Positions 28,403 through 56,794 of a stretch of DNA of 64,000 nucleotides are shown one piece after another (position 1 is the stretch's first letter; the number at the start of each line of letters is the position of its first letter). Made by a program: the position numbers and the translations under genes. The notes under the pieces were generated by a model that saw nothing but the letters and a program-made list of their open reading frames with translations, ran no database searches and was not told where the DNA came from. This DNA is from Sulfurimonas sediminis (GTDB taxonomy: Bacteria > Campylobacterota > Campylobacteria > Campylobacterales > Sulfurimonadaceae): positions 2,170,001 through 2,234,000 of the forward strand of contig NZ_CP041235.1 in NCBI RefSeq assembly GCF_014905115.1. The letters are read 5' to 3'.

Positions 28403-28948
28403 CTAACTCTGTATTGTAAGCTCTTTTATCGCCTTGCTTACATCTCCAAGACAACACCCGCCACTTGGATTCAGCACTTCGCAGGCACATCCCGGATTTT
28501 CCATCTTCGCTTTAATGTCTTCAATCACTGTTGTTTTGCCTGTTTCTGCAAGTTCGGCTCTTATTTTCTCTTTGCTCCACCCAAAACAGTAGCATACAGT
28601 AGCCGGGATTGCTCCTTCTTTGAGTCCGACGACCACACTCACATCTTTTTGTGTCAGTATCTCATCCCCTCGAAAATAGACTACTTTACATGTAGCTGTC
28701 TTACAGTAGTAAAAGCCGTCAAAGCAGGAAAGTTTTGATTTTGCCTCATCTTTTAAAAGATGTCGCAGTGTTTTACCAAGCACCCCCTTTGCTTTTTCTC
28801 CACACTTCGGACATACTACTTTGGCTTTTGGCTGTGGTGTGCAACAGTTGTCTCCCTCTGTTTCACAACTCGCACCCTGATTTTCCTGTACTTTTAATCC
28901 ACTTGAACAACAATCTTCTTTTTTTTGAGTCGTAAACATACTAAACAT
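28403..28948 (-). CDS. Cys-rich CopZ-type zinc/iron-sulfur protein (no HMA domain)
   Basis: 181 aa with 17 or so Cys. Visible groups: DCCSSG and NCCTPQ at the N-terminus, a zinc-ribbon-like VCPKCGEKAKG, then FYYCKTATCKVVYF, TVCYCFGWSKEKI and NPGCACEVLNPSGGCCLG. This resembles the N-terminal domain of Archaeoglobus-type CopZ, which binds zinc and a 2Fe-2S cluster, but the copper-binding HMA domain is absent. A role in mercury or copper handling is inferred. AAGGAG precedes the ATG 12 nt after the gdhA stop, so it was the last gene of the mer-gdhA operon and now lies behind an IS insertion. Confidence 0.7.
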   Translation of the reverse strand: MFSMFTTQKKEDCCSSGLKVQENQGASCETEGDNCCTPQPKAKVVCPKCGEKAKGVLGKTLRHLLKDEAKSKLSCFDGFYYCKTATCKVVYFRGDEILTQKDVSVVVGLKEGAIPATVCYCFGWSKEKIRAELAETGKTTVIEDIKAKMENPGCACEVLNPSGGCCLGDVSKAIKELTIQS

Positions 28949-29085: not shown

Positions 29086-30394
29086 TAGGTAAATCCCACG
29101 AAAAATAAAATAAATCTTAATCAATAGATTCAAAAGAACTGGAAGAAATATTGCTTAGACTCCTAAAACAAGGAGTTTACCATCAAATTAACACGCACAA
29201 AAGCCTTACTTGAATCGCTAAAAAGTATCCCAGACTATAGAGTAGATACAGGGAAGATAGAATATCCATTGCACGAAGTTCTTTTCATGACACTTTTTGC
29301 ACTTATCAAAGGAAATACAACTTTTAAGGATATATTTTCATGGATGATATATAACAAAGACAATGCAATACTCAAAGAGATTTTTGATAAAGAAGAGATA
29401 ACGATTCCTTCCAAATCAACATATCATCGTTTATTGATAAACACAGATAATAATGCTTTGGAAAAAGTATTTAGAGAGTTCTTTTTTCCATTCATTGCAC
29501 AAGAAAATATTGCTATTGACGGGAAGTGGCTGAGAGGTAGCGACGTGAATGGTCAATACACACAGGAAAGACATAAAGCAATACTAAATATCTTGGATAA
29601 AGATATAAAAATAGTGTTTGCTCACAAGTTTTTAGATAAAAATAAGAGTAGCGAAATTACTGCACTCAAAGAGGTTTTAAACGATAATATTTTTAGCAAT
29701 GAAGGACAGATATTTTCCTTTGATGCACTGCTTACTCAATCAGAGATTCTCAACACTATTGATGAGCAAGGTAACAGATATATAGCAAAACTCAAAGATA
29801 ACCAGAAACACCTCAAAGAGAAAGCTATAAAGACCATAGAAGAGTTTAATCAGCCTACAGATAGAGTTGATGATGAAGATAGCTATTTAACTGAAAACAA
29901 CAAAAGAGTCTCTCGAAAAGTAGAAGTTTTTCAAAATAAAAGTGCTGATTTAGTTATGTATCATGAGAACTTTCAAAATATTCAATCACTCATTAAAGTG
30001 ACGAAAACATTAACAAATGCACAGACTGGTGAAGTTACAATTTCAACTCAATATTTAATGGCTAACTTTAAAACAACTGCAAAAGAGTTTCTTCAAAAGA
30101 TACTGCAACATTGGAGAGTGGAAACATATCACTATCACTTAGATATGCTTACTGAAGAAGATGACCATATAGCATATAAAGAGCCTTTCTCTATAGCTAT
30201 TCTTAGAAGTTTTACTGTTAATCTTTATCAGTTGTTTTTAAATGAGAACAAAGATAAAAAGGTACTCCTAACCGGTAAAACTACAATGGCAGATATTAAA
30301 AGAAATGCTCTTTATCGTGATGATTTTAGTGTTCAATTGATTGAATCAAACTATATTGATTAAGATTTGTTTTATTTTTCGTGGGATTTACCTA
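29086..30394 (+). mobile_element. ISAs1-family insertion sequence, copy 2
   Basis: 1309 bp with 37-bp terminal inverted repeats differing at one position (29086-29122 and 30358-30394), flanked by the 9-bp target duplication GAAAAATAA (29077-29085, 30395-30403). It carries one transposase on the plus strand, opposite to the gdhA gene it interrupts. The long near-perfect ends suggest a young insertion. Confidence 0.95.
29182..30363 (+). CDS. ISAs1-family transposase
   Basis: DDE transposase with N-terminal LESLKSIPDYRVDTGKIEYP (the DDE-associated domain), first Asp in IAIDGKWLRGS, second in FSFDALLTQ and the Glu in ILQHWRVETYHYHLD. A frame from 29167 is open but holds no ATG before the conserved N-terminus; AAGGAG at 29170-29175 is 6 nt before ATC at 29182, where an ATG would be expected, so translation may use ATC or the start was lost. 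A TTG at 29269 would give a truncated protein of 364 aa. Distinct from the frameshifted copy at 11.5-12.6 kb. Confidence 0.85.
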   Translation: MKLTRTKALLESLKSIPDYRVDTGKIEYPLHEVLFMTLFALIKGNTTFKDIFSWMIYNKDNAILKEIFDKEEITIPSKSTYHRLLINTDNNALEKVFREFFFPFIAQENIAIDGKWLRGSDVNGQYTQERHKAILNILDKDIKIVFAHKFLDKNKSSEITALKEVLNDNIFSNEGQIFSFDALLTQSEILNTIDEQGNRYIAKLKDNQKHLKEKAIKTIEEFNQPTDRVDDEDSYLTENNKRVSRKVEVFQNKSADLVMYHENFQNIQSLIKVTKTLTNAQTGEVTISTQYLMANFKTTAKEFLQKILQHWRVETYHYHLDMLTEEDDHIAYKEPFSIAILRSFTVNLYQLFLNENKDKKVLLTGKTTMADIKRNALYRDDFSVQLIESNYID

Positions 30395-31579
30395 GAAAAA
30401 TAACCTTTGACTGTTTTTCTAAGATATATTTAAGTTTTTCATTCACTTCTTCCTCTTCCCAGTAGTATCCTGCCCTGTTTTGCACCCATTCAAAATAGCT
30501 CACAGTAACCCCTCCCGCATTTGCAAGTACATCGGGAATCACAATAGCATTGTTCTTTTGCAGAATTTCATCTGCTTGTGAAGTAATCGGACCGTTTGCA
30601 ATCTCTAAAATAAGTTTTGCCTGTATTTTTGCGGCATTCTCTTTTGTGATTTGATTTTCCATTGCGGCAAGCACCAATACATCAACATCCAACGCTAAGA
30701 GTTCTTCATTTGTCATGACCTCATTTTCTGCCTCTTCGCAGATAGACACATCACAATAAAGCATGGCTTTGAGCTCATTATGCTTTTTACGATGAAACAT
30801 TATCTTTTTCGGGTCTAGCCCGTCTTTAGAGTAGATGGCACCCTTGGAGTCAGAAAGCGCTACAACTTTATACCCTGCTTCTTTTGCAAGCCTGGCAAAA
30901 TGATACCCTGCATTTCCAAAACCCTGTACTGCTATGCGCATTCCCTGCAGTTTTTTTGCATTGCGCTTTAGCCAGCACTCAAGGACGTAAAGAGCACCTT
31001 GACCCGTAGCTGCTTCCCTACCTTTTGAACCGCCAAGATACACAGGCTTTCTGGTAATAACACCCGGAAGCTGTTCTCGCATTATTTGATTATACTCGTC
31101 TGCCATCCAGCCCATAATTGTTGCATTGGTGTACATATCTGGAGCGGGAATATCTCTCTTTGGTCCTATAATGTCAACAATAGCACGGATATAACCACGG
31201 CTTAGTCTTTCTAACTCAAGTTTTGAGAGCGTTTTTGCATCTACTGCAACACCACCTTTTGCACCCCCCAAAAGGCAGCCCTGCAACGGCACATTTTACC
31301 GTCATCCAAAAAGCAAGAGAAGTAACTTCATCTATGCAAACATCAGGATGAAAACGAATACCGCCTTTATAAGGGCCTCTTGTATCGTCATACTGCACGC
31401 GATATCCTGTAAAAACCCTCAAACTGCCATCATCCATTCTTACGGGAATGTTTACAGTGAGATTAAGTTTAGGCTGTGCCAAGCGAATCGCAATATCTTC
31501 CGGCAGGCTTATAAGAGGTAAAACTTTATCCAATCTACTTTTTGCATCATCAAACAAATTTCTCATAATATTTTCCTTT

Positions 31580-33196
31580 TTATGTTGCACAACAACTTAA
31601 TTCTTTCACATTTTTATCAAATGTAATAGCCGCTAATTTAATACCTTCTCCAAGCGTTAAATAGGGATGAAGCATCTCTTTTAAATCACTTACTTTTATA
31701 CCAAATTTCATGGCGACGGAAATTTCCATAAGCAGTTCAGAACCCTCAGCAGCTACAATGCGAGCACCGATTAAAGTGTCATCTGCTGTGTTTCTTAAAA
31801 GTTTAATCATACCTCGTGTATCTTTAGCGGCAATGGCACGGGGCACATAGCTCAGAGGCAGGGTTGCCACCTCAAAATCTATGCCTTTGTCTTTTGCCTG
31901 TTTTTCATCCAAACCCACACCGGCAACTTGAGGATCGGTAAAAATGACCCACGGCAATACAGAAAAGTCCAGTTTTTGCTGCGAAGAAGAAAACATATTG
32001 GCAACCGCTGTTTTAGCCTCATACGCAGCAGTATATACAAACATATGCTCTCCTGTCACATCGCCTGCTGCATATATTGTTGCAACATTTGTCTGCCCAA
32101 AATCATTCACTTTCACAGCACCGTTTACATGTAACGATAAGTCCAAAGATTCCAAGTTCATATTTTGTGTATTTGCAACCCGTCCTGTGGCAACAACTAT
32201 TTTTTCGGCTTCTATCTCTAAAGTTTCATCGCCTACTACTGTTTTGACAATGACACTACCATTCTTTTGATGCACACTCTGTATAACATTATCTGTAATA
32301 ATTTCTATGCCCTCATCTTGCAAATAGCCACTGAGCATATCTGTAATATCCGGGCTTTCATGCGAGAGTATACGCTCTGAGCGTTGTAAAACCGTTATTT
32401 TTGAGCCAAACCTTGCAAACATTTGCGCCATTTCCAAGGCAATGTAGCTCCCACCGAGAATTATCATAGATGCAGGCAGAGATTCCAAGGCAAAAGCCTC
32501 ATCATTTGTCAGGTAATCCACTTCACTTAAACCCTCAATATCTGCTATCATAGGACGCGCACCGGTAGCTATTAAAATATGACTTCCCTCTATAATTCGT
32601 CCGTTTACTTCTACGGCTGTTGGAGAAACCAAAGAAGCATGCCCCTCAATAAACTCAAAATTTTCCATATCTTTGATGATATTGATGTATTTTTGCTCAC
32701 GCAAATCTAAAACAAGCTTTGTTTTTTCTTCTATTACAGTTTTAAAATCAGCAAGCTTGGCAGATGATGTGATGCCTCCAAATGGATTATTGTTTGCATT
32801 ATAAAGCGTCTGGGCTGCCCGAATGAGATTTTTTGAAGGAACACAGCCAATATTGACACATGTTCCACCGATTGGCAATCCATCATTAATCATCGTTACT
32901 TTAACACCATGTTCTTTCGCTTCAATGGTCGCTGCAAACGCAGCAGAACCACCGCCTATGATAATAAGATGTTTTTCCTCTTGAGAAACATCTGTAACTT
33001 TATAGTTTCCTATACTGTTGATTGTTTCCTGAATTGCCTCTATATTTGTAAGTGTTTCGTCAAAAGAGACGACTGCTTTTTTCTCAGGATAGCTGACTTT
33101 TTTTTCTTTCACACCTTCAATGTCCAATTTTTTTTCAATAATAAGCGCACAATGATCACAGGTCATGCCCTCTATTTGTAATTCATACGTTTGCAT
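31580..33196 (-). CDS. merA: Mercuric reductase with N-terminal metal-binding domain
   Basis: About 538 aa from the ATG behind AGGAG. It reduces Hg(II) to Hg(0) with NADPH. Domains: HMA (GMTCDHC at 10-16), FAD and NAD(P)H domains (IIIGGGSAAFAATIEA, IILGGSYIALEMAQ), redox disulfide GGTCVNIGCVPSK (C113, C118), the dimerisation domain with YVPRAIAAKDTRGMIKL, and the C-terminal vicinal cysteines in ELSCCAT. All features needed for a working MerA are present. It follows the MerT-MerP fusion after 11 nt and overlaps gdhA by 11 nt. The palindrome at 32125 encodes LHV. Confidence 0.93.
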   Translation of the reverse strand: MQTYELQIEGMTCDHCALIIEKKLDIEGVKEKKVSYPEKKAVVSFDETLTNIEAIQETINSIGNYKVTDVSQEEKHLIIIGGGSAAFAATIEAKEHGVKVTMINDGLPIGGTCVNIGCVPSKNLIRAAQTLYNANNNPFGGITSSAKLADFKTVIEEKTKLVLDLREQKYINIIKDMENFEFIEGHASLVSPTAVEVNGRIIEGSHILIATGARPMIADIEGLSEVDYLTNDEAFALESLPASMIILGGSYIALEMAQMFARFGSKITVLQRSERILSHESPDITDMLSGYLQDEGIEIITDNVIQSVHQKNGSVIVKTVVGDETLEIEAEKIVVATGRVANTQNMNLESLDLSLHVNGAVKVNDFGQTNVATIYAAGDVTGEHMFVYTAAYEAKTAVANMFSSSQQKLDFSVLPWVIFTDPQVAGVGLDEKQAKDKGIDFEVATLPLSYVPRAIAAKDTRGMIKLLRNTADDTLIGARIVAAEGSELLMEISVAMKFGIKVSDLKEMLHPYLTLGEGIKLAAITFDKNVKELSCCAT

Positions 33197-33207
33197 AGCA
33201 AACTCCT

Positions 33208-33939
33208 TTATTTTGTTCCACACTTTCCAGAACCGCACTTACCGGCTCCACACTTTCCACCGCCACATTTTGAAGCACCTGCTTTTTGGGCTTTTTTGTG
33301 TTGCGTCACTTGAATATCACCTGCTTTATGCGTTCCATTCTCATCCGTATAACCTACAGGTCTATATCCGGTCGTTCCTATCGCTTTCATAATAGTATTT
33401 ATATCTGTCTTTGTTTTATCATAACTGACAACTGCTTGTTTTTTGGGTGTTGAGGCTTTTGAAGAGATAACACCATCCACTTCATAACTGACTTTTTGCA
33501 CTGTTGCTTCACAGGCTGCACAGGTCATGCCCTTTATATGTATCACTTTTGTAAGCACATTCTTTTTATCTACTATGACTGTTTTTGGCTTGTTGCTTTG
33601 AATAAACGTATCACCCCAATATGGAAAAGAGAGCATAACAGCGGCAAAGAGAGTAACAATCGCCAAAAATGTTTTGCTGTACCAAAAAGAGACTTTTCCC
33701 TCTTCATCCGCATCGCATGCACATTCTATCTCTGCTTGTTTTGGCTTGAGTTTATCCCACCATGCATACGCAAGTACTATAACAGTAAGGGCTATAAGAT
33801 AAGGACGAAACGGCTCCATCCATGAAAAACTCGATGCCAATCCCGTACTCCCCGCCAATACTGCCAATACCGGTGTAATACAGCATAAAGATGCTCCAAT
33901 TGCCGCAAGTACGCCTGTGATGATTTTTTTATCTGCCAT
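33208..33939 (-). CDS. MerT-MerP fusion with a KCG-repeat tail
   Basis: 243 aa. Residues 1-130: MerT-like membrane part with the vicinal cysteines in GASLCCITPVLAVLAGSTG and an ECACDADE loop. Residues about 150-215: a MerP-like HMA domain (KGMTCAACEATVQ). The last 25 residues form KCGGGKCGAGKCGSGKCG repeats, the same motif type as in two small copper-regulon proteins in this window. The protein should pass Hg(II) from periplasm to MerA. MerT-MerP fusions are known; I do not know of one with this tail. Confidence 0.88.
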   Translation of the reverse strand: MADKKIITGVLAAIGASLCCITPVLAVLAGSTGLASSFSWMEPFRPYLIALTVIVLAYAWWDKLKPKQAEIECACDADEEGKVSFWYSKTFLAIVTLFAAVMLSFPYWGDTFIQSNKPKTVIVDKKNVLTKVIHIKGMTCAACEATVQKVSYEVDGVISSKASTPKKQAVVSYDKTKTDINTIMKAIGTTGYRPVGYTDENGTHKAGDIQVTQHKKAQKAGASKCGGGKCGAGKCGSGKCGTK

Positions 33940-33942
33940 GAT

Positions 33943-34290
33943 TTATCCTTTTATAAGACGTTCAAGTCTCTCTTTTTGTCTAGGGTTAATAAAGTAAAAA
34001 ATTGTCATTCCCTCGCGTTTGTTGAGCAGCAGTCCTCCATCTTTAAGCTTTCGTAAATGCTGAGAAATGGGAGACTGATTCATTGCTAAAATATCTGCCA
34101 AATCGCAAACACACATGCGTTCAAACTCTAAAAAGAGGCGTATAATTTTCAATCTTACCTCATTGCCTAAAAGAGAAAATATTTGTGCCTGAGAGGATAA
34201 CCCTTCTTTATGCTTCACAAGACACGCCTTTGCATTTTCTATTAAACTACTGTCAACACTGATTCTGCAACAACTGTTTTCTTCTTTCAT
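33943..34290 (-). CDS. ArsR/SmtB-family metal-sensing repressor
   Basis: 116 aa from the ATG behind AAGGAG (34296-34301 in complement). Winged helix with the alpha-3 metal motif MCVCDLADILAMNQSPISQHLRKL (C-x-C), as in ArsR-type arsenic/antimony/mercury sensors, plus an N-terminal ENSCCR pair that may join the site. First gene of the mer operon and presumably its repressor, releasing the palindrome at 34311-34328 on metal binding. ArsR-type control of mer, instead of MerR, is known in some lineages. A longer frame from 34398 has no ribosome site. Confidence 0.85.
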   Translation of the reverse strand: MKEENSCCRISVDSSLIENAKACLVKHKEGLSSQAQIFSLLGNEVRLKIIRLFLEFERMCVCDLADILAMNQSPISQHLRKLKDGGLLLNKREGMTIFYFINPRQKERLERLIKG

Positions 34291-34310
34291 TTTCCACTCC
34301 TTAAACAGTA

Positions 34311-34328
34311 TATTAGTATATTCTAATA
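34311..34328. promoter_or_regulatory. Operator palindrome of the mer operon
   Basis: TATTAG-TATATT-CTAATA: perfect 6-bp arms around a 6-nt centre, 20 nt upstream of the ArsR-type regulator start and overlapping its likely promoter. Size and position fit an ArsR/SmtB operator. Confidence 0.6.
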
Positions 34329-34357
34329 AACTTGTCAAGTTGAATTGCTTTTTTCTA

Positions 34358-34387
34358 CACAAACACACCACAAAAAAGTTATATACT
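34358..34387 (+). promoter_or_regulatory. Copper-regulon box and -10 of the YtkA-DsbD-MCO-CopB operon
   Basis: CACA-AACACAC-CACA (34358-34372), 9 nt, TATACT (34382-34387). It shares the short divergent intergenic region with the mer operator, so mercury and copper operons are back to back. Confidence 0.72.
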
Positions 34388-34416
34388 TCTCCTAACAAAA
34401 CAAAAAGGAGTTTCTT

Positions 34417-40711: not shown

Positions 40712-43015
40712 ATGAGTGAAAAGAAAACAGAAGAAAACACAGAAGAAGAAAATATTTACTGTATAGATGATTCCTGTGAAATAGGCAATGTATTTTATAC
40801 CTGTCCTATGCACCCCGAGATTCATCAGGACCATCCGGGGAACTGTCCAAAATGTGGCATGACTCTTGAAAAAGAGGTTGAAGCACTGCCGACAATAAAA
40901 ACACAATACACCTGTCCCATGCACCCTGAAATTATCCGTGATGAACCGGGAGACTGTCCTATCTGTGGAATGCATCTTGAACCTATAACAGTACAGGCCG
41001 AAGAAAAAAACGAAGAACTTGATGATATGAGCCGTCGCTTTTTGATAAGCACCGTTTTGTCAATTCCTTTGTTTGCCCTGGCAATGGTTCATGACATTAC
41101 TCCGCAGTATATTCCCTCCTGGCTGAGTGCACAATTAGTACAGTGGATTGAATTTGTTTTGGCAACGCCTGTTGTACTTTGGGGCGGCTGGCCTTTTTAT
41201 GTCAAAGGCTATCAGTCGGTAAAAACATGGAATTTAAATATGTTTACGCTCATCTCCATGGGTGTGGGAGCTGCCTATCTTTACAGTGTCGTGGCTCTCT
41301 TTTTTCCTGAAATTTTTCCACCGCTTATGCACACAGCAGAAGGTGTCGTACCTGTTTACTTTGAGGCAGCAGCCGTTATTACAACCCTTGTTCTTTTGGG
41401 TCAGGTGCTGGAACTGCGGGCAAGAAGCAAAACAAACACAGCCATCAAAACCCTGCTTAACCTTGCTCCCAAAAAAGCACACAGAATTATAGATGAAGCG
41501 GGCAATGAAGAGGAGGTCAATCTCGAACTTGTACATGTAGGCGACAAGCTCCGAGTCAAACCGGGAGAAAAAATTCCTGTTGACGGTGTGGTTATTGAGG
41601 GACAGAGTAATATTGACGAATCTATGATAACAGGAGAACCTGTGCTTGTCCAAAAAACGGTAGGCGATACACTCATAGGTGCTACCATCAATAAAAACGG
41701 AACCTTGGTTATGCAGGCGACAAAAGTAGGCTCTGATACAATGCTGGCCCAGATTGTTCAGATGGTAGCCCAGGCCCAACGATCCCGCGCACCGATTCAG
41801 CAGCTTGCCGATACCGTGTCAAGTTATTTTGTACCTGCAGTTGTCATTTCTGCGGTACTTGCTTTTATAGGCTGGTATATCTGGGGACCGTCTCCGCAAC
41901 TCGCTTATGCCGTTGTCGCTGCAGTTTCCGTACTGATTATTGCCTGTCCGTGTGCCCTCGGCCTTGCTACACCAATCTCGATAATGGTGGCTACCGGTCG
42001 TGCAGCACTCTCAGGCATCCTGATCAAAGACGCAAAAACACTCGAGACGATGGAAAAAATAGACACTCTCGTCGTAGATAAAACCGGAACACTTACTCTT
42101 GGAAAACCAAAAGTGACTGATTTTCTCACAGCTTCGGGCTATGATACAAAAGAGCTTGTCAAATATGCTGCTTCATTGGAGCGGGCAAGTGAGCATCCTC
42201 TTGCACAGTCTGTTATAGACTATGCAACAGAGCTCAATATTTCACTTATCAATGTAGACAATTTTGAAGCGGTACCCGGCAAAGGAGTCATTGCCAAAAT
42301 TGACGGTAAAAAGATAATTTTAGGCAGTGAAAAACTTTTACAGGAAGAAAATATTTCCATAGAAGAGGTACGGGCAAAAGCAGATGCCATGCGCAATGAT
42401 GCAAAAGGCATTATTTTTATGGCGATAGATAATAAATATTGTGCAATAATTGCGATAGAAGATCCTATAAAAGAGACTTCTGTTGAAGCTGTACATACAT
42501 TGGAAAAAGAGGGTATAACTGTTGTCATGCTCAGTGGCGACAATGAATTTACCGCCAATGCAGTGGCTAAAAAACTCGGTATTTCAAAAGTGTATGCCAA
42601 TGTTCTGCCTGACGGCAAAGCCGATATCATCAAAGAACTCCAAAGTAGTGGAGCACGTGTTGCAATGGCCGGTGACGGCATCAATGATGCTCCGGCACTG
42701 GCACAGGCAGATGTCGGTATTGCCATGGGAACAGGAACAGATGTCGCTATTGAGAGTGCGGGAGTTACTCTTATCAAAGGAGATTTGCTCGGTATTGTAA
42801 AAGTTCTGAGACTCTCTCGTGCCACGATGCAAAACATTAGACAAAATCTCTTTTTTGCTTTTGTTTACAACAGCGCCGGCGTTCCGATTGCGGCAGGTGT
42901 ACTCTATCCGTTCTTTGGGATTGTGCTCTCCCCTATTATTGCCGCAGCCGCAATGAGTTTCAGTTCTGTTTCTGTTATAGCAAACGCACTGCGTTTAAAA
43001 AATGTAAAACTGTAA
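40712..43015 (+). CDS. copA: Copper-exporting P1B-type ATPase
   Basis: 767 aa. Instead of HMA domains it has two heavy-metal-binding domains of the YTCPMHPEI...CPKCGM type (residues 29-53 and 66-88). Then six to eight membrane segments, the transport motif ACPCALG, phosphorylation site [11 protein letters not shown] motif SEHPLAQ and [16 protein letters not shown]. It pumps Cu(I) to the periplasm at the cost of ATP. Third gene of the copper-box operon; GGAGGTG precedes the ATG. Confidence 0.93.
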
Positions 43016-43027
43016 TCAGGAGGTATA

Positions 43028-43402
43028 ATGAAAATTGTTTTACTGACCCTCAGCACTTTTGTACTCTTCATAAGTGCCTGCAGCGATGAAAAAAAAGTTA
43101 CCAAATCTTCGGCGCCGGGAATGAAATGCGGCTCCGGGAAATGTGGTGCAAATATGTTTGACGGCAGTACGGCGCTGACCAAAAAAAAGAAAAATATTTT
43201 AGCACAGATGAGACAAGATGACCCGCGTCAAGACTGTGTAAAAAATGCAAAAAGTACGAAAAAAATGTATGATTGTGTAAGAGATCCCAAAACACACATT
43301 ATGACACTCAAATGCGGAGAAGGAAAATGCGGTGCAGCCATGCCGGAGCCAAAACCCATAATGAAATGCGGTGCAGGCAAATGTGGCGGTTCTATGAAAT
43401 AG
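43028..43402 (+). CDS. Lipoprotein with GKCG repeats, possible RiPP metallophore precursor
   Basis: 124 aa. A lipobox (FISAC, Cys18) ends the signal peptide. Three paired motifs follow: KCGSGKCG (33-40), KCGEGKCG (95-102) and KCGAGKCG (113-120). The middle pair contains EGKCG exactly, the sequence that MNIO enzyme HvfB modifies to a copper-binding group in HvfA-type peptides. Between them lies a DUF-like linker with two more Cys (RQDCVKNAK, YDCVRDPK). It is the last gene of the CopA operon, 12 nt after copA. No MNIO (DUF692) gene lies in this window, so modification is a hypothesis; plain thiolate binding of copper is the alternative. Confidence 0.7.
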   Translation: MKIVLLTLSTFVLFISACSDEKKVTKSSAPGMKCGSGKCGANMFDGSTALTKKKKNILAQMRQDDPRQDCVKNAKSTKKMYDCVRDPKTHIMTLKCGEGKCGAAMPEPKPIMKCGAGKCGGSMK

Positions 43403-50281: not shown

Positions 50282-51457
50282 CTACTTTCTTGGTATAAAT
50301 TCAAGCACCGAAGCATTGATACAAAACCGTTTGCGTCCATCAGGCAGAGGAAAAACATGCCCGAGATGAATACCGCTTTTTTTCGCAATAATTTCAATGC
50401 GTTTCATACCAAAACTGTTATCCTCTTTTTGTATTGTCGCACCGTCAACCGCCTTGTAAAAACTGAGCCATCCGGTTCCTGAGTTAAACCTGTCTTGTGT
50501 GTCAAACAGCACTTCACCGCTGAGTTTGTCTACAAATACGCCATCAGGCGTATGGTTAAATATATCATACTGCTTGCAAAAACGGTTATCTGTTCCTTGG
50601 TTAAATGCCACCTTGTAACTCTCAGAATTTTTTCCCAGTTTAAAATTACCCAACGCTTTGTAAAACTCTTTTTCATTCATAAAACCGACATGGCTCCTCA
50701 TTTCTTTGCCGTCTTGTACAAAAAGGATTGTAGGCGTTGCATAAAGTTTTGTTTGTATATCAAAGCCTTTGAGGCTGTTTGCTGTCACCGTCCGCATCGG
50801 CACGCTCCCTTTGTATTTTTGTGCCACTTCTTTATCAAATTTTTCGCAATAGGGGCAAAAATTCGGACTTTTTATCACTAAAATCTCTTTGCCGCCCAAA
50901 GGTGTTATCTCCTTCTGCTTTGTCTCTTCTTTTTGAAACTTCACCCCTGTGGCATGATTCGGACAGTAGCCGTTGGGATGTTTTTGCAGATAATCCTGAT
51001 GATACGATTCTGCCGTATAAAAATGCTTGAGCGGTTTTATCTCTGTCTGTATCGTGCCCAAGCCCTTTTGTCTTAAGAGTTTTTGGTATGCCTCTTGTGT
51101 CTCATGAGCAATTTTTTCCTGTCTGGGCGTTGTGTAAAAAATGGCACTTCTGTAATTATTGCCAATGTCGTTGCCCTGTCCGTTTGCCTGTGTCGGATCA
51201 TGCAGTTCCCAAAAAGATTTTATCAGTGTTTTTGCATCTGTTTTAGAATTGTCATAAACGACTTTAACCGATTCGGTGTAGTTAATGATCTTTTTGCCGT
51301 CTTTGGTGTAACGGTTTTTCAGTACCTTTTCATAGGTCGGGTTGGGATAATTTCCGCCTGCATACCCGGACTCGGCACTGATAACCCCCTGCATATGTTC
51401 AAAATGTTTCTCAACACCCCAAAAACACCCTGCCGCAAATACGATAGAAACTATCAT
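50282..51457 (-). CDS. MsrA-thioredoxin-MsrB fusion methionine sulfoxide reductase
   Basis: 391 aa. Residues 1-175: MsrA with catalytic GCFWG (C11) and GYCPNHATG. Residues 188-275: thioredoxin-like domain with CPYC (201-204) and the cis-Pro loop YATPTILFV. Residues 278-391: MsrB with GTGWLSFY, GIHLGHVFP and catalytic Cys in RKRFCINAS (C379). The fusion repairs both sulfoxide isomers and carries its own reductant domain. Its order differs from Neisseria PilB (Trx-MsrA-MsrB). The zinc CxxC pairs of many MsrB proteins are not visible. No clear signal peptide at this start. It overlaps the GMC gene by 4 nt. Confidence 0.88.
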   Translation of the reverse strand: MIVSIVFAAGCFWGVEKHFEHMQGVISAESGYAGGNYPNPTYEKVLKNRYTKDGKKIINYTESVKVVYDNSKTDAKTLIKSFWELHDPTQANGQGNDIGNNYRSAIFYTTPRQEKIAHETQEAYQKLLRQKGLGTIQTEIKPLKHFYTAESYHQDYLQKHPNGYCPNHATGVKFQKEETKQKEITPLGGKEILVIKSPNFCPYCEKFDKEVAQKYKGSVPMRTVTANSLKGFDIQTKLYATPTILFVQDGKEMRSHVGFMNEKEFYKALGNFKLGKNSESYKVAFNQGTDNRFCKQYDIFNHTPDGVFVDKLSGEVLFDTQDRFNSGTGWLSFYKAVDGATIQKEDNSFGMKRIEIIAKKSGIHLGHVFPLPDGRKRFCINASVLEFIPRK

Positions 51458-53118
51458 GACTTCTCCTTTTTTAATTGTTCTTTGATAACATCTGCCACAC
51501 GAAAAGAGTTTGCATAAATCGTCCAGGTATAAGGAATACTCCCGCCTGTAGGCATAAATGAAGCATCCGAAACATACAGATTTTCTAAATCATGGGCTTT
51601 GCAGTTTTTATCCAGCACGGATGTCTTTGCATCATTACCAAACCTGCATCCGCCGGCAACAAGGTTCGGTGGAGGAGCAGAAGATATGGAGTAGTCAATC
51701 TCCTCACAACCGAGTCGCTCTAAAACTTTCACTGCTTTTTGTGCCAGATATTCGCCTACTTCCAAATCCTGGGGATGTCCGTAGAGATTTATGACCCCTA
51801 CCGGCACACCGTATTTGTCTTTGGTCTTCTCATCCACACCCACAAAACATTTATCAGTCGGCAACCAGTCGTTAAAGACTTCAAAAGTCAGCACTCGTGA
51901 AGTTGTCAGCCGTTTGTGCAGTTTTTCTTTGAGTTTTTCACCCCACAAAAGCTTCCCGTTTTCATCATAAACTTCGCGCATCACACGGGATATAATATTT
52001 TGATGTTCAAACAAAAAGTCTATAGTTCCGCCTTTGTAGGCTTTGTCCTCATTTTTATATTCATACCAGTCCTGCAAAGAACGGTTAAAAAAAGCACCAA
52101 CCTCCATCAGCTCTTTTTGCTGCTGTGGTGTCAGTTTTTCAAAAACAAAGCGTCCACTGCCGCTGCCGCCTGCCGAAAAAATGAGATTTTTCCCGACTTC
52201 CCCGCTGGAGTTTGCCAAACCGTTTGGAAAATGCTCGTTTTTAGAATTAAGCAAGAGTCGTGAGGTCTCAATCGCCTGTGCCGCTACGACAAAGATTTTT
52301 GCCTGCACAGAGTGTCTGATACCGTTTTTTGTATAGTAATATGCCCGTGTTACTTTTTTCTCATTACTTTGAAGTCTGTAGACAAAGGCATCGGTAATGA
52401 TTTTTGCCTTGCATTTTTGCAACAAGGCAGCACGCCCACTTCCCTTTGCTCCACTCGCACAGCCATAGCTCCCGCAAAAATTGGAGTAGTAACAGGCATT
52501 ACGCCCAAGAGCATTTTGTGATAATATCGCTCGGGGCGTGGGAATCGCTTCATAGCCCAAGTCTTTACATGTAAGGTCAAACCATTTTGTTGCACCGTTT
52601 ATCTGCAGCTCAGGATAAGGAAAATCTGCACTTGAGCGGGGTTCAAGATGTTTATGTTGGACAATCTTGCCACTCACACCCACAACTTTTTCGACCCTGT
52701 CATAGTAAGGTTCCAAATCCTTATAGCTGATCGGCCAGTCAACAACATTTGCCCCTTTGATTTCGCCATAGACACTTTTTAGCTGAAAATCATTGGGCTT
52801 GAGCCTGTGAAAATAACCGCTCATCAGGTTTGACGAACCACCGACCATGGAACCGTTCCAAAAACTCCAGCCTGATTCTTCCCCGTCATAACGGGTAAAT
52901 GTCCCGTCTGCCCTATACTCGTTTATGATATGCTTTTGTTCATTTAAAGGAGGGGTAAACATATCACGTCGTGTGACAGCTATTTCATCTTTGTTAAAAT
53001 CACTCTCTGAAAAGTTCTCGCCCTTTTCCAGCACAACAACGCTAAATCCAGCATTTGCAAGTTCATAGGCTATTGGTGAGCCACCTGCTCCACTGCCGAT
53101 TATACATACATCAACCAT
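51454..53118 (-). CDS. GMC-family FAD oxidoreductase (gluconate dehydrogenase-like large subunit)
   Basis: About 555 aa from the ATG at 53116-53118, chosen because FAD-binding VDVCIIGSGAGGSPIAYELA begins there. Further motifs: GWSFWNGSMVGGSSNLMSGY, a Cys-rich NACYYSNFCGSYGCASGAKGSG segment, and C-terminal YVSDASFMPTGGSIPYTWTIYANSFRVAD with the His/Asn-type active region. Its partner, a gluconate 2-dehydrogenase subunit 3-like protein, lies 13 nt upstream. Substrate unknown: a sugar acid or alcohol is likely from the family. The operon has a copper-regulon box and continues into MsrAB. Confidence 0.83.
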   Translation of the reverse strand: MVDVCIIGSGAGGSPIAYELANAGFSVVVLEKGENFSESDFNKDEIAVTRRDMFTPPLNEQKHIINEYRADGTFTRYDGEESGWSFWNGSMVGGSSNLMSGYFHRLKPNDFQLKSVYGEIKGANVVDWPISYKDLEPYYDRVEKVVGVSGKIVQHKHLEPRSSADFPYPELQINGATKWFDLTCKDLGYEAIPTPRAILSQNALGRNACYYSNFCGSYGCASGAKGSGRAALLQKCKAKIITDAFVYRLQSNEKKVTRAYYYTKNGIRHSVQAKIFVVAAQAIETSRLLLNSKNEHFPNGLANSSGEVGKNLIFSAGGSGSGRFVFEKLTPQQQKELMEVGAFFNRSLQDWYEYKNEDKAYKGGTIDFLFEHQNIISRVMREVYDENGKLLWGEKLKEKLHKRLTTSRVLTFEVFNDWLPTDKCFVGVDEKTKDKYGVPVGVINLYGHPQDLEVGEYLAQKAVKVLERLGCEEIDYSISSAPPPNLVAGGCRFGNDAKTSVLDKNCKAHDLENLYVSDASFMPTGGSIPYTWTIYANSFRVADVIKEQLKKEKS

Positions 53119-53131
53119 TATATCTCTGCCA

Positions 53132-53620
53132 TTACATGTAAGCCTTTTGCGGTCTGGGTTGTCCGCCTTTGAAATTGAGCCATTGCCAGCCGGCTTCTTT
53201 GTTGTTTCCGCCATATACAGGGTCACCGAGCATTGCTTCAAACATATAGTTCATCACCTCATAAACAAAACTCTCTCCCCACTCTGTTTGTGTTATATGC
53301 TCAAGAATACTTTGTCTTTGCATTGGAGAAAGCTTTGTGTACTCTTTTTTATAACTTTGTACAGCTTCTTCATTGAGCCATTTCACACCGTTTTTTAAAA
53401 AAGTTTTATCCGCATCGCTTATGCGGCTGTGATGAAATATTTTTTGCATATACGGAGCAGTTTGTATCCCTAAATGCTGTGCCTGAGGGAAGAGGTCTTT
53501 GTGTAAAAGGCTGAAGGTTTGCAGGGGTGTTGTTACGCCAAAAAGAGTGCATCCGTCCATTAAAAAAACGGCACCACAAAGAAAACCTGCCTGTAAAAAC
53601 TTTCTACGAGAAAAGGTCAT
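53132..53620 (-). CDS. Gluconate 2-dehydrogenase subunit 3-like protein, Tat-exported
   Basis: About 162 aa from the ATG at 53618-53620, giving MTFSRRKFLQAGFLCG, a twin-arginine signal with a possible lipobox (MDGC). The rest matches the small subunit family: LLHKDLFPQAQHLG, LEHITQTEWGESFVYEVMNYMFEAMLGDPVYGGN, GWQWLNFKGGQPRP. It escorts or anchors the GMC flavoprotein encoded next. The stop codon is supplied by a copy of TTACATGTAA (53132-53141). Confidence 0.83.
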   Translation of the reverse strand: MTFSRRKFLQAGFLCGAVFLMDGCTLFGVTTPLQTFSLLHKDLFPQAQHLGIQTAPYMQKIFHHSRISDADKTFLKNGVKWLNEEAVQSYKKEYTKLSPMQRQSILEHITQTEWGESFVYEVMNYMFEAMLGDPVYGGNNKEAGWQWLNFKGGQPRPQKAYM

Positions 53621-53792
53621 CAAAAAACGAACCTTTCTTTTTTGGTTTATAAGAGGATGTCCGCTCATCCACAAAATCAGGATCCCCTTTTTCAAGCATC
53701 TCTTTTGAAGGTTTTTGTATATGTTTTTTCGGCTTTTTCTCTTTAACAAATCCAGTGTTCGTTGTGCGAGCCGTACCGTGAGGAATGCACAT
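53604..53792 (-). CDS. Small protein of unknown function at the head of the GMC operon
   Basis: 62 aa preceded by a strong AAGGAGG. Basic and proline-rich (KEKKPKKHIQKPSKEMLEKGDPDFVDERTSSYKPKKKGSFFDDLF), no membrane segment. It overlaps the next gene start by 17 nt. The copper-regulon promoter ends 30 nt upstream, so it is the first gene translated from that mRNA. I recognise no family; the Cys-Ile-Pro-His start is the only possible metal feature. Confidence 0.65.
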   Translation of the reverse strand: MCIPHGTARTTNTGFVKEKKPKKHIQKPSKEMLEKGDPDFVDERTSSYKPKKKGSFFDDLFS

Positions 53793-53820
53793 GATAGCCT
53801 CCTTCTCTTATTTTAAAACT

Positions 53821-53850
53821 ATTATACTAAAAATCTGTGTAGTAATTGTG
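53821..53850 (-). promoter_or_regulatory. Copper-regulon box and -10 of the GMC-MsrAB operon
   Basis: Read on the minus strand: CACA-ATTACTA-CACA (53850-53836), 9 nt, TATAAT (53826-53821). The miniature IS4-derived element at 53863 begins just upstream of the box. Confidence 0.75.
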
Positions 53851-53862
53851 CAACCACCCCTT

Positions 53863-53996
53863 CAATGCCATTAAGTTAAGAAAAAAACTTGATGTTTTCT
53901 TGGAACCTAGGTTTTAACCTAGGCTTTAGGCTTGAAAAACACAAAGCCCGCACTAAAGTACGGGTTCCGAAAAAGTCGCTTAACTTAATGGTATTG
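53863..53996. mobile_element. IS4-derived miniature inverted-repeat element (MITE)
   Basis: 134 bp with ends CAATGCCATTAAGTTAAG and CTTAACTTAATGGTATTG, matching the 19-bp ends of the IS4 element at 20451-22035. The 11-bp flanks are AACCACCCCTT (53852-53862) and AACAACCCCTT (53997-54007), one mismatch, as expected for a target duplication of the same enzyme. Inside are hairpins CCTAGG/CCTAGG and CCCG...CGGG. Positions 53941-53979 are repeated at 60529-60567 with one difference. Confidence 0.82.
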
Positions 53997-54041
53997 AACA
54001 ACCCCTTAATCTATTAAAGATTCTTCAAAATAGGTAAGTAC

Positions 54042-55733
54042 CTATCCAAAAATAAGATTTTCCTTACTGAGTTGTGACATATGCTTTAATCCCATAACTG
54101 CAAGAAGATTTTTTATACCTGCAAGCAACTGTTCATGATATGATGCAATGTTTCTTGCTTTTTTCTCTATCAAAAAGGAGGCTCGTTTTTTCTTGTCCTG
54201 CGTTGCCAGACCAACCGGACAGGCACGACCATGCGCGCCTGAACACTCACGAGCCCGAATGCATCCCGCACTCATCATAAATGCCCTTGCAATAGCGACA
54301 AAATCCGCTCCCAGTCCAAAAAGGACTATCGCATCATCAGGCGTTAACACCTTTTCACTTGCAATAAGTTTGACATTTTCTCGAACACCGACTCTTTTTA
54401 ATTCGTTATCTGCTATATAGAGTGCTTTAGTGATAGTCATTCCTACACTCATCATCATCTCCAACGGTGCCGCACCGCTCCCGCCGTCTCCGCCGTCTAT
54501 GGTAATAAAATCCGGGTAAGCATTAGAACCGGCATGCAAACGTTCTTTGATTAAATTTGCATACTGTGTAAAATTTTCCTGGGAAGATATGACGATTTTG
54601 ACACCTACAGGCTTTTGCGATAAGGCTTTGAGTCTGCCTATAAAATCAAAAAGTTCTTCCAGCGTATGTGCAAACGGAAACTGATTGGGAGAAAACAGGT
54701 CTTTATGTGCCTCGACACCTCGGTAATAAGCAATTTCTTCACTTACTTTCGTAGCAAGCAGTTTCCCTCCTGTCTGCTTGGCGCCTTGCGCCATTTTTAC
54801 CTCTGTCATTTTGCAAAAACGCATAGTTTTTTGATAGCGTTCTTCGCAAAAATTACCTTCTTCATCTCGCACACCGTACAAACCGCTTCCCATTTGAAAA
54901 ACAATATCGGGCATATCATCAGGCACCTCGGAAGGAAAAGTTTTCATAGGAGCATCCCAATTAACTCGGTAAAAGACCAATTCAGTTTTATCAAAGAGGT
55001 AACTGTCAGGTGCAGACGTTGTCACAACCATATGTTTATACACACTTTGTGCAGTGGCGGCATTGGTAAAAAACTTGATAAATTTATACACATTTTTGGC
55101 AAAAAAAGTTCCCTCTTGAGTTTGAAAAAATTTACACTCTCTTGTATATTTATGGGTATAAAAAAAGTTTGAAGTCAGACTTCCTTCTCCTGTATTTATA
55201 GGAAACTTTCCAAGATATGCGCCTTTGGTAAAGGCACGTGTTCCCTCAGGAGAGATAGCCCCGTCACTCATGGCACTCCGCCCGAGAATAGACCTTGTTG
55301 TAAAAGGCTTGGGAGAAGCTTCTCCAAAAGTTGTAGAAAAATCATCGCTGACATCCTGTGTATTGAGCACACAGTTTGCATTTTTTATGCCAAGTCTTGC
55401 ACTCTTTTGCGGTTGTCCAGGAGAAAAAGAGGCATAGGCGGATTTGCGTTCAGCCGAATCATACACCCATTTGACCTTGTCAAAAGATTCATAAAATTTT
55501 TCATCACCGAAATACTGGCGCATCGGGTCACGAAGGGCATAAAAGAGATACCGCATACGACCGATTAACGGATAGTTAATCAGCAATTGGTTTTCCCGTT
55601 GAATATACCTGTCGTAAATAAACAAAACTATAGAAGTTACAATAAAAAGAATAGTTATTGCCTTAAACATAAACATCAATATTGGAAATTGGATTTCTCC
55701 TATTTCATGAGTAAATCTAAATAATGCTTCCAT
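54042..55733 (-). CDS. FMN-binding glutamate synthase-like protein with membrane anchor
   Basis: 563 aa. One N-terminal membrane segment (about residues 18-42), then a glutamate synthase FMN/Fe-S-type domain: GRSAMSDGAISPEGTRAFTKGA, VFQMGSGLYGVRDEEGNF, the FMN site TIDGGDGGSGAAPLEMMM, and Cys in MSAGCIRARECSGAHGRACPVG, where the 3Fe-4S ligands lie. Stand-alone proteins of this type have unclear roles and do not imply ammonia assimilation. It lies 3 nt after the DoxX gene and shares its copper-box promoter. Confidence 0.83.
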   Translation of the reverse strand: MEALFRFTHEIGEIQFPILMFMFKAITILFIVTSIVLFIYDRYIQRENQLLINYPLIGRMRYLFYALRDPMRQYFGDEKFYESFDKVKWVYDSAERKSAYASFSPGQPQKSARLGIKNANCVLNTQDVSDDFSTTFGEASPKPFTTRSILGRSAMSDGAISPEGTRAFTKGAYLGKFPINTGEGSLTSNFFYTHKYTRECKFFQTQEGTFFAKNVYKFIKFFTNAATAQSVYKHMVVTTSAPDSYLFDKTELVFYRVNWDAPMKTFPSEVPDDMPDIVFQMGSGLYGVRDEEGNFCEERYQKTMRFCKMTEVKMAQGAKQTGGKLLATKVSEEIAYYRGVEAHKDLFSPNQFPFAHTLEELFDFIGRLKALSQKPVGVKIVISSQENFTQYANLIKERLHAGSNAYPDFITIDGGDGGSGAAPLEMMMSVGMTITKALYIADNELKRVGVRENVKLIASEKVLTPDDAIVLFGLGADFVAIARAFMMSAGCIRARECSGAHGRACPVGLATQDKKKRASFLIEKKARNIASYHEQLLAGIKNLLAVMGLKHMSQLSKENLIFG

Positions 55734-55736
55734 TGT

Positions 55737-56177
55737 TTAATTTTTTTCTCCAAAAACAAGTCTGTCCAATGAAAATTTTCCTGCACCAAAAGATAAGAAA
55801 ATAAATAAAAATGCCATATAATAGAGTGGAATTTCAAAACCATTATCACCTGCTGCAAAGCCATTATGCAGATGTACAGTGACTATGGCCACAATCATTA
55901 TGATAATCAAAGGAATAGAAATCAGTCTCGTAAAAAATCCCAATGTTAACAACACGACCCCTGTTATTTCCGTACTGGCAGCCATGTAGGCATTCAATAC
56001 CGGGAAAGGAATGCCCATTGAGCCAAACCACTCTGCAACAGACTTCATATCATTCCATTTCATCATTGCCGGTTCATAAAAACCGTATGCTACCAAGAGC
56101 CTTGCAAAAAGCAGACTCAACGGTTGCAGATATTCACCTAAGCGTGAAAATTCAAGATATATTTTTTTAAGATTCAT
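55737..56177 (-). CDS. DoxX-family membrane protein
   Basis: 146 aa from the ATG behind AAGGAG. Four membrane segments; PLSLLFARLLVAYGFYEPAMMKWND and STEITGVVLLTLGFFTRL are typical DoxX text. DoxX proteins (HvfD/BufD) accompany MNIO-modified copper peptide operons, and here a GKCG peptide gene lies 340 nt upstream on the same strand with its own identical box. The protein may help supply electrons or quinone chemistry; function unproven. Start chosen over 56255 because the promoter -10 (56204-56209) lies inside the longer frame. Confidence 0.85.
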   Translation of the reverse strand: MNLKKIYLEFSRLGEYLQPLSLLFARLLVAYGFYEPAMMKWNDMKSVAEWFGSMGIPFPVLNAYMAASTEITGVVLLTLGFFTRLISIPLIIIMIVAIVTVHLHNGFAAGDNGFEIPLYYMAFLFIFLSFGAGKFSLDRLVFGEKN

Positions 56178-56203
56178 AACAAACTCCTTAAGTTGTATCA
56201 AAA

Positions 56204-56233
56204 ATTTTACTGCTTTTGTGTGTAGTAAGTGTG
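56204..56233 (-). promoter_or_regulatory. Copper-regulon box and -10 of the DoxX operon
   Basis: On the minus strand: CACA-CTTACTA-CACA (56233-56219), 9 nt, TAAAAT (56209-56204). Start codon 27 nt downstream. Confidence 0.7.
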
Positions 56234-56276
56234 CAGAATCAAACTCTACTGACAAATTACAGATACAGGGCCAACA

Positions 56277-56470
56277 CAGGCCCGCACTGAAGTACGGGTT
56301 CCAAATAAATGCTTAACTTAATGCTTTCTCGGAACCGGTACTTCAGTGCCGGCTGTTGCAATAGTCTTGCCACTCTCAGCCGGCACTGCAGAAAAAAATG
56401 CTTAACTTAATGGTACTGATAGGGGGAATCATGTTTTTATCGTAAAGTAATGGTATTAGAGGAGGGGAAT
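56277..56470. repeat. Cluster of IS4-derived ends and hairpins
   Basis: Contains CCCGCACTGAAGTACGGG (56281-56298), GCTTAACTTAATGC (56311 on), the hairpin CTTCAGTGCCGGCTG (56341-56355) with its complement ending 56392, and an intact right end CTTAACTTAATGGTACTG (56401-56418). A degenerate end GTAATGGTATTA follows at 56447-56458. The 11-mers after the two ends (ATAGGGGGAAT, GAGGAGGGGAA) resemble each other. This looks like nested or decayed miniature elements between the DoxX promoter and the GKCG gene. Confidence 0.65.
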
Positions 56471-56512
56471 TGAAGTAAATGAGCCTTATGCCCATTTACA
56501 TGTAATAAAAAA

Positions 56513-56794
56513 CTAGTTAGCGCCGCATTTTCCTTTGCCACACTTCATAGCACCTGCTTTCTTTTCTTTCATCTCTTTCTTTTTTTTCATCTCTTTCATG
56601 GCAGCACCACATTTCATGCCCGCTTTTTTCATGCCGGCACCACATTTCATGCCGCCTTTTTTCATTGGCTTATCCATTGAAGATCCACATTTCCCTGCGC
56701 CGCATTTCATATCGCCTGCACTGAGTGAAACTGCGCCGAGTCCTGTAAAAAGAGCCGCGCCTAAAAGTAAGGCTGTAAGATTTAACTTTTTCAT
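56513..56794 (-). CDS. Secreted GKCG-repeat peptide, possible HvfA/bufferin-like metallophore
   Basis: 93 aa. Signal peptide (residues 1-26, VSLSAG). The mature part is Lys/Met/Gly-rich with KCGAGKCG (30-37), KCGAGMKK (50-57), KCGAAM (61-66) and KCGKGKCG (84-91): six Cys, all in KCG units. This pattern resembles MNIO-modified copper peptides (EGKCG in HvfA), though without the exact Glu. It has its own copper box and lies upstream of a DoxX gene, the usual HvfD/BufD neighbour, but no DUF692 or DUF2063 gene is present in the window. A simple Cu-thiolate protein is the alternative. Confidence 0.72.
   Translation of the reverse strand: MKKLNLTALLLGAALFTGLGAVSLSAGDMKCGAGKCGSSMDKPMKKGGMKCGAGMKKAGMKCGAAMKEMKKKKEMKEKKAGAMKCGKGKCGAN

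Follow-up and report, generated by a model that had tools for sequence, protein, structure and literature searches.

A KCG-repeat tail common to most MerT–MerP fusion proteins found in Campylobacterota and its putative role in metal capture

Results and discussion

The MerT–MerP (MerTP) fusion encoded in the window—i.e. the whole stretch of 64,000 nucleotides from Sulfurimonas sediminis analysed here—ends in a tail of KCG units, which is shared by 11 of the 13 MerTP fusions recovered from genomes of the phylum (the window included), the 13 not being a full census since the contig scan detects close relatives only. We lean somewhat towards considering the tail to be inherited in the MerTP importer of Campylobacterota and maintained by selection, serving as an unmodified, flexible periplasmic thiol bait for soft metals. 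The contig scan yielded 11 loci, ten of which (L001–L010), originating from Sulfurovum, Sulfurimonas, Helicobacteraceae, Epsilonproteobacteria and Arcobacter records, contain KCG units, the eleventh (L011) matching the MerT part only.

The MerTP fusion and its tail

The fusion gene (33208–33939, reverse strand; stop codon at 33208–33210) encodes a protein of 243 residues that consists of a three-helix MerT part, one HMA domain and the C-terminal KCG tail, the C-terminus reading ...QKAGASKCGGGKCGAGKCGSGKCGTK. The Pfam domains MerT and HMA cover residues 5–110 and 132–192, respectively, and the NCBIfam model for MerTP (NF033556) scores 246.5 bits over residues 8–193, i.e. above its curated cut-off of 180. 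The end of the HMA domain (residue 192) is separated by a 31-residue linker from the tail KCGGGKCGAGKCGSGKCGTK (33211–33270, reverse strand), the four cysteines of which exhibit a 5-residue spacing and are kept in relatives. The four KCG units following the HMA domain, as already recognized in the preceding sequence-only reading, correspond to residues 224–241 (33217–33270), and the complete set of cysteines comprises positions 19, 20, 73, 75, 140, 143, 225, 230, 235 and 240. The units take the forms GGKCG, AGKCG and SGKCG, with one EGKCG in L009. At the DNA level, TRF reports a 15-nt repeat at 33218–33279 with 4.1 copies and 68% matches; because the agreement between the copies is only that high, the units appear to be old and diverged rather than freshly expanded.

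The HMA part matched the MerP structures 1afi and 1osd in the PDB, copper ATPase domains being ranked above MerP among its matches. The AF2 model based on the 10-row alignment A1, a weak one (mean pLDDT 57.1, pTM 0.39), contains helices at residues 4–32, 34–64 and 89–112 and an HMA-like fold at approximately 128–205, the pLDDT being below 50 across residues 216–243. The orientation of MerT in the membrane is known and, taken together with the count of three helices, it would place both the HMA domain and the tail on the periplasmic side. A search of viral contigs gave a match of 15 residues only.

The mer operon and its copper neighbourhood

The operon follows the order ArsR–MerTP–(MerA)–CopZ_N. 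In the window, MerTP has the mercuric reductase MerA directly downstream (31580–33196, reverse strand; over the cut-off of TIGR02053 with 515.3 bits; N-terminal HMA at 6–63 and C-terminal SCCAT), the start of which was set at an ATG instead of the GTG of the listed open reading frame. Upstream is an ArsR/SmtB-type regulator with the CVCDL motif (33943–34398, reverse strand; NF033788, 76.9 bits), for which a later ATG (MKEENSCC...) is a likelier start than the TTG of the listed frame. The putative metallochaperone of the CopZ N-terminal type (zf_CopZ, Fe–S; 28403–28948, reverse strand; PF18423 and NF047645), with tblastn matches in L001, L003 and L005–L009, immediately follows MerTP or MerA in relatives and is set apart in the window. 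It is separated there from the mer operon by a transposase-like frame (29269–30363) and a glutamate-dehydrogenase-like gene that occupies two overlapping frames (31216–31590 and 30372–31292, reverse strand) and is probably frameshifted, both having been identified by sequence reading.

According to tblastn, ArsR is positioned upstream of MerTP in all ten loci L001–L010; MerTP is followed by MerA in the window, L001, L006 and L009, and directly by CopZ_N in L003, L005, L007 and L008, the loci L002, L004 and L010 ending at that point. A MerA over the cut-off is present in five of the 11 tail-bearing genomes and none was detected in the other six, several of which are incomplete MAGs. Since these six genomes are without MerA over the cut-off and CopZ_N directly follows MerTP in four loci, mercury is perhaps not the sole substrate. 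It should be pointed out that MerA as a constant companion of the tail is ruled out, the tail occurring in loci both with and without MerA and the beginning of a MerA-like frame (identified by sequence reading) coming after the tail-less MerTP of L083.

Copper genes adjoin the mer operon in three of the 11 loci, i.e. the window, L002 and L009. Those of L002 correspond to those of the window—YtkA, multicopper oxidase, CopA and a KCG protein, the identities of the first three having been tested in the window—and the copper side of L009 consists of a CusA-like protein, CopA, a response regulator and a histidine kinase (CusA, regulator and kinase by sequence reading). The CopA-type P-type ATPase of the window (40712–43015, forward strand; E1–E2 ATPase and HMBD domains) is directly followed by an exported, lipoprotein-like KCG protein (43028–43402, forward strand; NF050137, 38.6 bits, cut-off 19.5). 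A DsbD-like reductase adjoins as well and could keep periplasmic thiols reduced. The second exported KCG peptide (56513–56794, reverse strand) scores 18.7 bits, just below the same cut-off. Both exported proteins with which the tail had been said to share its unit thus exist, and the proposed link between the mer operon and the copper peptides is supported by the shared unit and by the three loci with adjoining copper genes.

With respect to these neighbours, the tail might be mainly a copper device that buffers Cu(I) or screens it off from the mercury importer, or MerTP itself might move copper in the loci lacking MerA. The tail unit is identical to that of the KCG protein beside CopA, the copper genes are adjacent in the three loci named, copper ATPases lead the PDB matches of the HMA part, and the loci L005, L007 and L008 contain CopZ_N instead of MerA, no MerA over the cut-off having been found in their genomes. 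The operon of the window, however, holds MerA over the cut-off and is headed by a regulator of the ArsR type; moreover, the published EGKCG peptides are described, in the part of PMC13097082 considered here, as binding copper when modified, and the same is not shown there for bare KCG. A copper function is therefore regarded as a tentative alternative of appreciable, although clearly lower, probability.

Conservation of the tail

The tail comprises four units in L002, L004, L006, L007, L008 (one being RCG) and L009; L001 has three units and L005 two, L003 combines three KCG with one KCS, and in L010 the contig end cuts the tail after three. The Lys, Cys and most of the Gly residues of the units are kept across the tail-bearing genes, the Cys and Lys positions even across Sulfurimonas, Sulfurovum and Arcobacter records sharing 56–77% protein identity. 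The linker ahead of the tail is variable in both sequence and length (28–36 residues). Comparison of 13 tail codons in 45 pairs formed by ten of the 11 tail-bearing genes (L005 excluded) gave 246 identical, 285 synonymous and 54 replacement codon pairs, and the prevalence of silent changes points to purifying selection, keeping in mind that related sequences enter the count repeatedly.

Two tail-less MerTP proteins, L012 (genome G052) and L083 (G420), emerged from the searches of 149 relatives and 397 phylum genomes, so the tail is not essential. The former may be of foreign origin, its length being nearer to that of the Bacteroidota form. Since alignment A1 had matches at 1e-40 in only four of the 397 phylum genomes—the window genome (G000), the tail-less G420 and two matching in the MerT part only—MerTP fusions are rare among them. 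Excluded before counting were sequences with a different C-terminal part after MerT (L011, L017–L022, L084 and L085), duplicates of the window, L002, L005 and L010 (L013–L016 and L082), loci with HMA as a separate frame (L023–L026) and one with a stop inside the match (L027). Those of the first set are MerT proteins of about 300 residues without the HMA part and with similar C-termini; in L017, MerT is fused via a Cys-containing linker to a rhodanese domain, whereas the C-terminal parts of the others were judged by sequence reading.

A local repeat expansion absent from close homologues, which the sequence-only reading had named as the finding that would speak against its proposal, is ruled out by the presence of the tail in most MerTP proteins and by units differing at the DNA level. 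Some MerTP copies are perhaps nonfunctional, given an in-frame stop in the MerT part of L005 (2508–3203) and a frame change in that of L010 (8001–8728), each reflecting either real decay or an assembly error. That the tail is what is left of a fused KCG peptide, neutral and functionless, would agree with the two MerTP proteins without it and with the varying number of units (two in L005, three in L001), but it is considered improbable in view of the Cys and Lys positions kept at the above-mentioned identities and the mostly silent codon changes.

Occurrence of the modifying enzyme

In the sequence available, the 2.32-Mb one-contig window genome (99.99% complete) gave no match to either PF05114 (MNIO) or PF09836 (DUF2063 partner), the control genomes being matched in two of 14 and one of 14 cases, respectively; the tail as an MNIO substrate is rejected on this ground for this genome. 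PF05114 was found in three of the 11 tail-bearing genomes (those of L005, L008 and L009), where modification of the tail is possible, and not in the other eight, the window genome among them. The earlier suggestion that the tail may be a substrate of the same modifying enzyme as the copper peptides is accordingly not supported, and the outcome of the check proposed with it is mostly negative, no MNIO genes being detected in most of the tail-bearing genomes.

The KCGxxKCG pattern searched at the DNA level was present in 74 of the 149 relatives, with nine matches in the window genome, vs two of the 149 for the reversed pattern used as a control, i.e. more often than expected by chance. Of the 149 relatives, many of which are incomplete genomes, ten possess PF05114 and eight both PF05114 and the pattern, so that 66 of the 74 are without MNIO; NF050137 exceeded its cut-off in 42, MNIO being present in six of those. 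Among the 397 phylum genomes, all at least 90% complete, the pattern occurred in 64 and the control in 14, and single pattern matches may thus be due to chance; at least three of them (G258, G340 and G395) read through a stop. PF05114 was found there in 25 genomes over the cut-off (27 at E 0.001) and coincided, over the cut-off, with the pattern in 12, leaving 52 of the 64 without it. In a published survey, Buf_EGKCG precursors without MNIO are rare, being found in 67 of 2583 genomes (PMC12452194, as far as the part considered here reports); the contrast with the 66 of 74 relatives is large, although rough, since the survey profile differs from the KCGxxKCG pattern. MNIO genes adjoin KCG peptides in L042, L046, L048, L049 and L081, the unit thus being a possible MNIO substrate elsewhere.

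A tail with thiooxazole-type modified cysteines, as in HvfA and bufferins, is consequently very unlikely in spite of the similar motif, MNIO in three of the 11 tail-bearing genomes and beside KCG peptides of relatives, and the AKCGA variant modified once by FonBC according to the part of PMC13097082 considered, there being no PF05114 and PF09836 in the window genome and no PF05114 in seven of the other ten tail-bearing ones.

Other KCG proteins

The fourth KCG protein of the window genome is a c-type cytochrome (L065/L077; 982–1530 of L065, near C1:23358) with MKCGAGKCG close to its end, a similar one being found in locus L071 of a relative. In relatives, KCG units also follow the HMA domain at the C-terminus of the HMA proteins of L032 and L053. 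The YtkA-like protein of L052 (identified by sequence reading) begins with KCGxxKCG, which is present in small exported peptides as well. The exported peptide at 56513–56794 adjoins a DoxX protein of the HvfX family (55737–56255, reverse strand; NF050144, 123.3 bits, cut-off 80). These two belong to a one-strand row (50282–56794, reverse strand) together with a glutamate-synthase-like FMN protein, a gluconate-2-dh3-like subunit, a GMC oxidoreductase and MsrA/B; some of these partners recur next to KCG peptides in MNIO-free relatives.

Concerning the 139 MNIO-free relatives, KCGxxKCG is present in 39 of the 40 with HvfX over the cut-off vs 27 of the 99 without it, and in the own genus in 36 of 36 vs 25 of 49, all being raw counts that ignore kinship. 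Within approximately 1.5–3 kb around the KCG match, the 27 MNIO-free loci inspected (L047 and L050–L075) contain HvfX/DoxX in five cases (L051, L060, L062, L069 and L070), a glutamate-synthase-like protein in three (L051, L060 and L062) and a gluconate-2-dh3-like protein and/or GMC oxidoreductase in six (L050, L051, L061, L069, L070 and L075); none of these was seen in the short flanks of the remaining loci.

The co-occurrence of HvfX with KCG and the flavoprotein neighbours are the ground for a broader reading, i.e. an MNIO-free KCG system in Sulfurimonas and its kin, with the unit on the importer, cytochrome c, HMA and YtkA-like proteins and peptides, its cysteines being either processed by another enzyme or used as a bare metal-catching module. 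This would be a rather speculative view, drawn from sequence comparison. Flavoproteins adjacent to KCG peptides and HvfX would be candidates for such an enzyme, be it the glutamate-synthase-like FMN protein or the GMC oxidoreductase with its gluconate-2-dehydrogenase-3-like subunit.

Possible function of the tail

Because the genome is without the known KCG-modifying enzyme, the tail would probably grip metal with unmodified Cys thiols, and the metal-holding role put forward for it is plausible. Connected with the MerP-like HMA domain through the linker of about 30 residues and presumably exposed to the periplasm, the four cysteines, each flanked by Lys and Gly, would capture first of all Hg(II) and possibly Cu(I), raising the local concentration of the ions. 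The metal might then be relayed from the tail to the CxxC of the HMA domain, the Cys pair of helix 1, the cytoplasmic Cys pair and, eventually, MerA or CopZ_N.

Databases and publications treat the KCG unit as a sign of MNIO-modified copper peptides. In the present case, it is found on a mercury importer and without MNIO in most KCG-bearing genomes of the whole bacterial group. If this is true, the naming of NF050137 matches as oxazolone/thioamide-modified RiPPs would be doubtful in these genomes; the role of the bare unit would be directly testable, and so would be a possible periplasmic thiol module common to mercury and copper handling. The protein at 43028–43402 is one that would be so labelled, in a genome without a match to the modifying enzyme.

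Comparison with known systems

No publication on a KCG tail of MerTP or on bufferins in Campylobacterota was found in the open-licence literature. Five of the listed Bacteroidota plasmid MerTP proteins (NF033556) share with the window the MerT–HMA fusion and, in four of the five, ArsR before MerTP, but they are shorter (196–207 residues) and all five are without KCG and have no Cys among their 20 C-terminal residues. In four of the five loci (L086–L090), a small GDCCVxC (seleno)protein is annotated after MerTP, an unnamed protein of similar size being found in the fifth.

The tail resembles the HvfA/Buf_EGKCG oxazolins (NF050137, NF050188) in the repetition of GKCG units, the location on the exported side, the copper context and the presence of an HvfX-family DoxX in the genome. 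It differs from them in belonging to a transporter instead of being a secreted peptide and in its GGKCG, AGKCG and SGKCG units vs EGKCG; moreover, MerTP had no match to NF050137 (KCGExKCG_twice) at E 0.001, and the window genome has no match of the HvfB/HvfC type.

The closest parallel is represented by the fusions of MerC with bufferins, MerC|Buf1 and MerC|Buf2, the C-terminus of which is periplasmic (PMC12452194): in both cases, a mercury-transport membrane protein carries a C-terminal periplasmic, Cys-rich, metallophore-like segment. The window protein, in contrast, consists of MerT–HMA with a bare KCG tail instead of the bufferin domain, in a genome without an MNIO match. As far as the part of that source considered here goes, a mercury transporter with a metallophore-like tail is thus known from the MerC–bufferin fusions, and the novelty lies in the KCG tail on MerTP.
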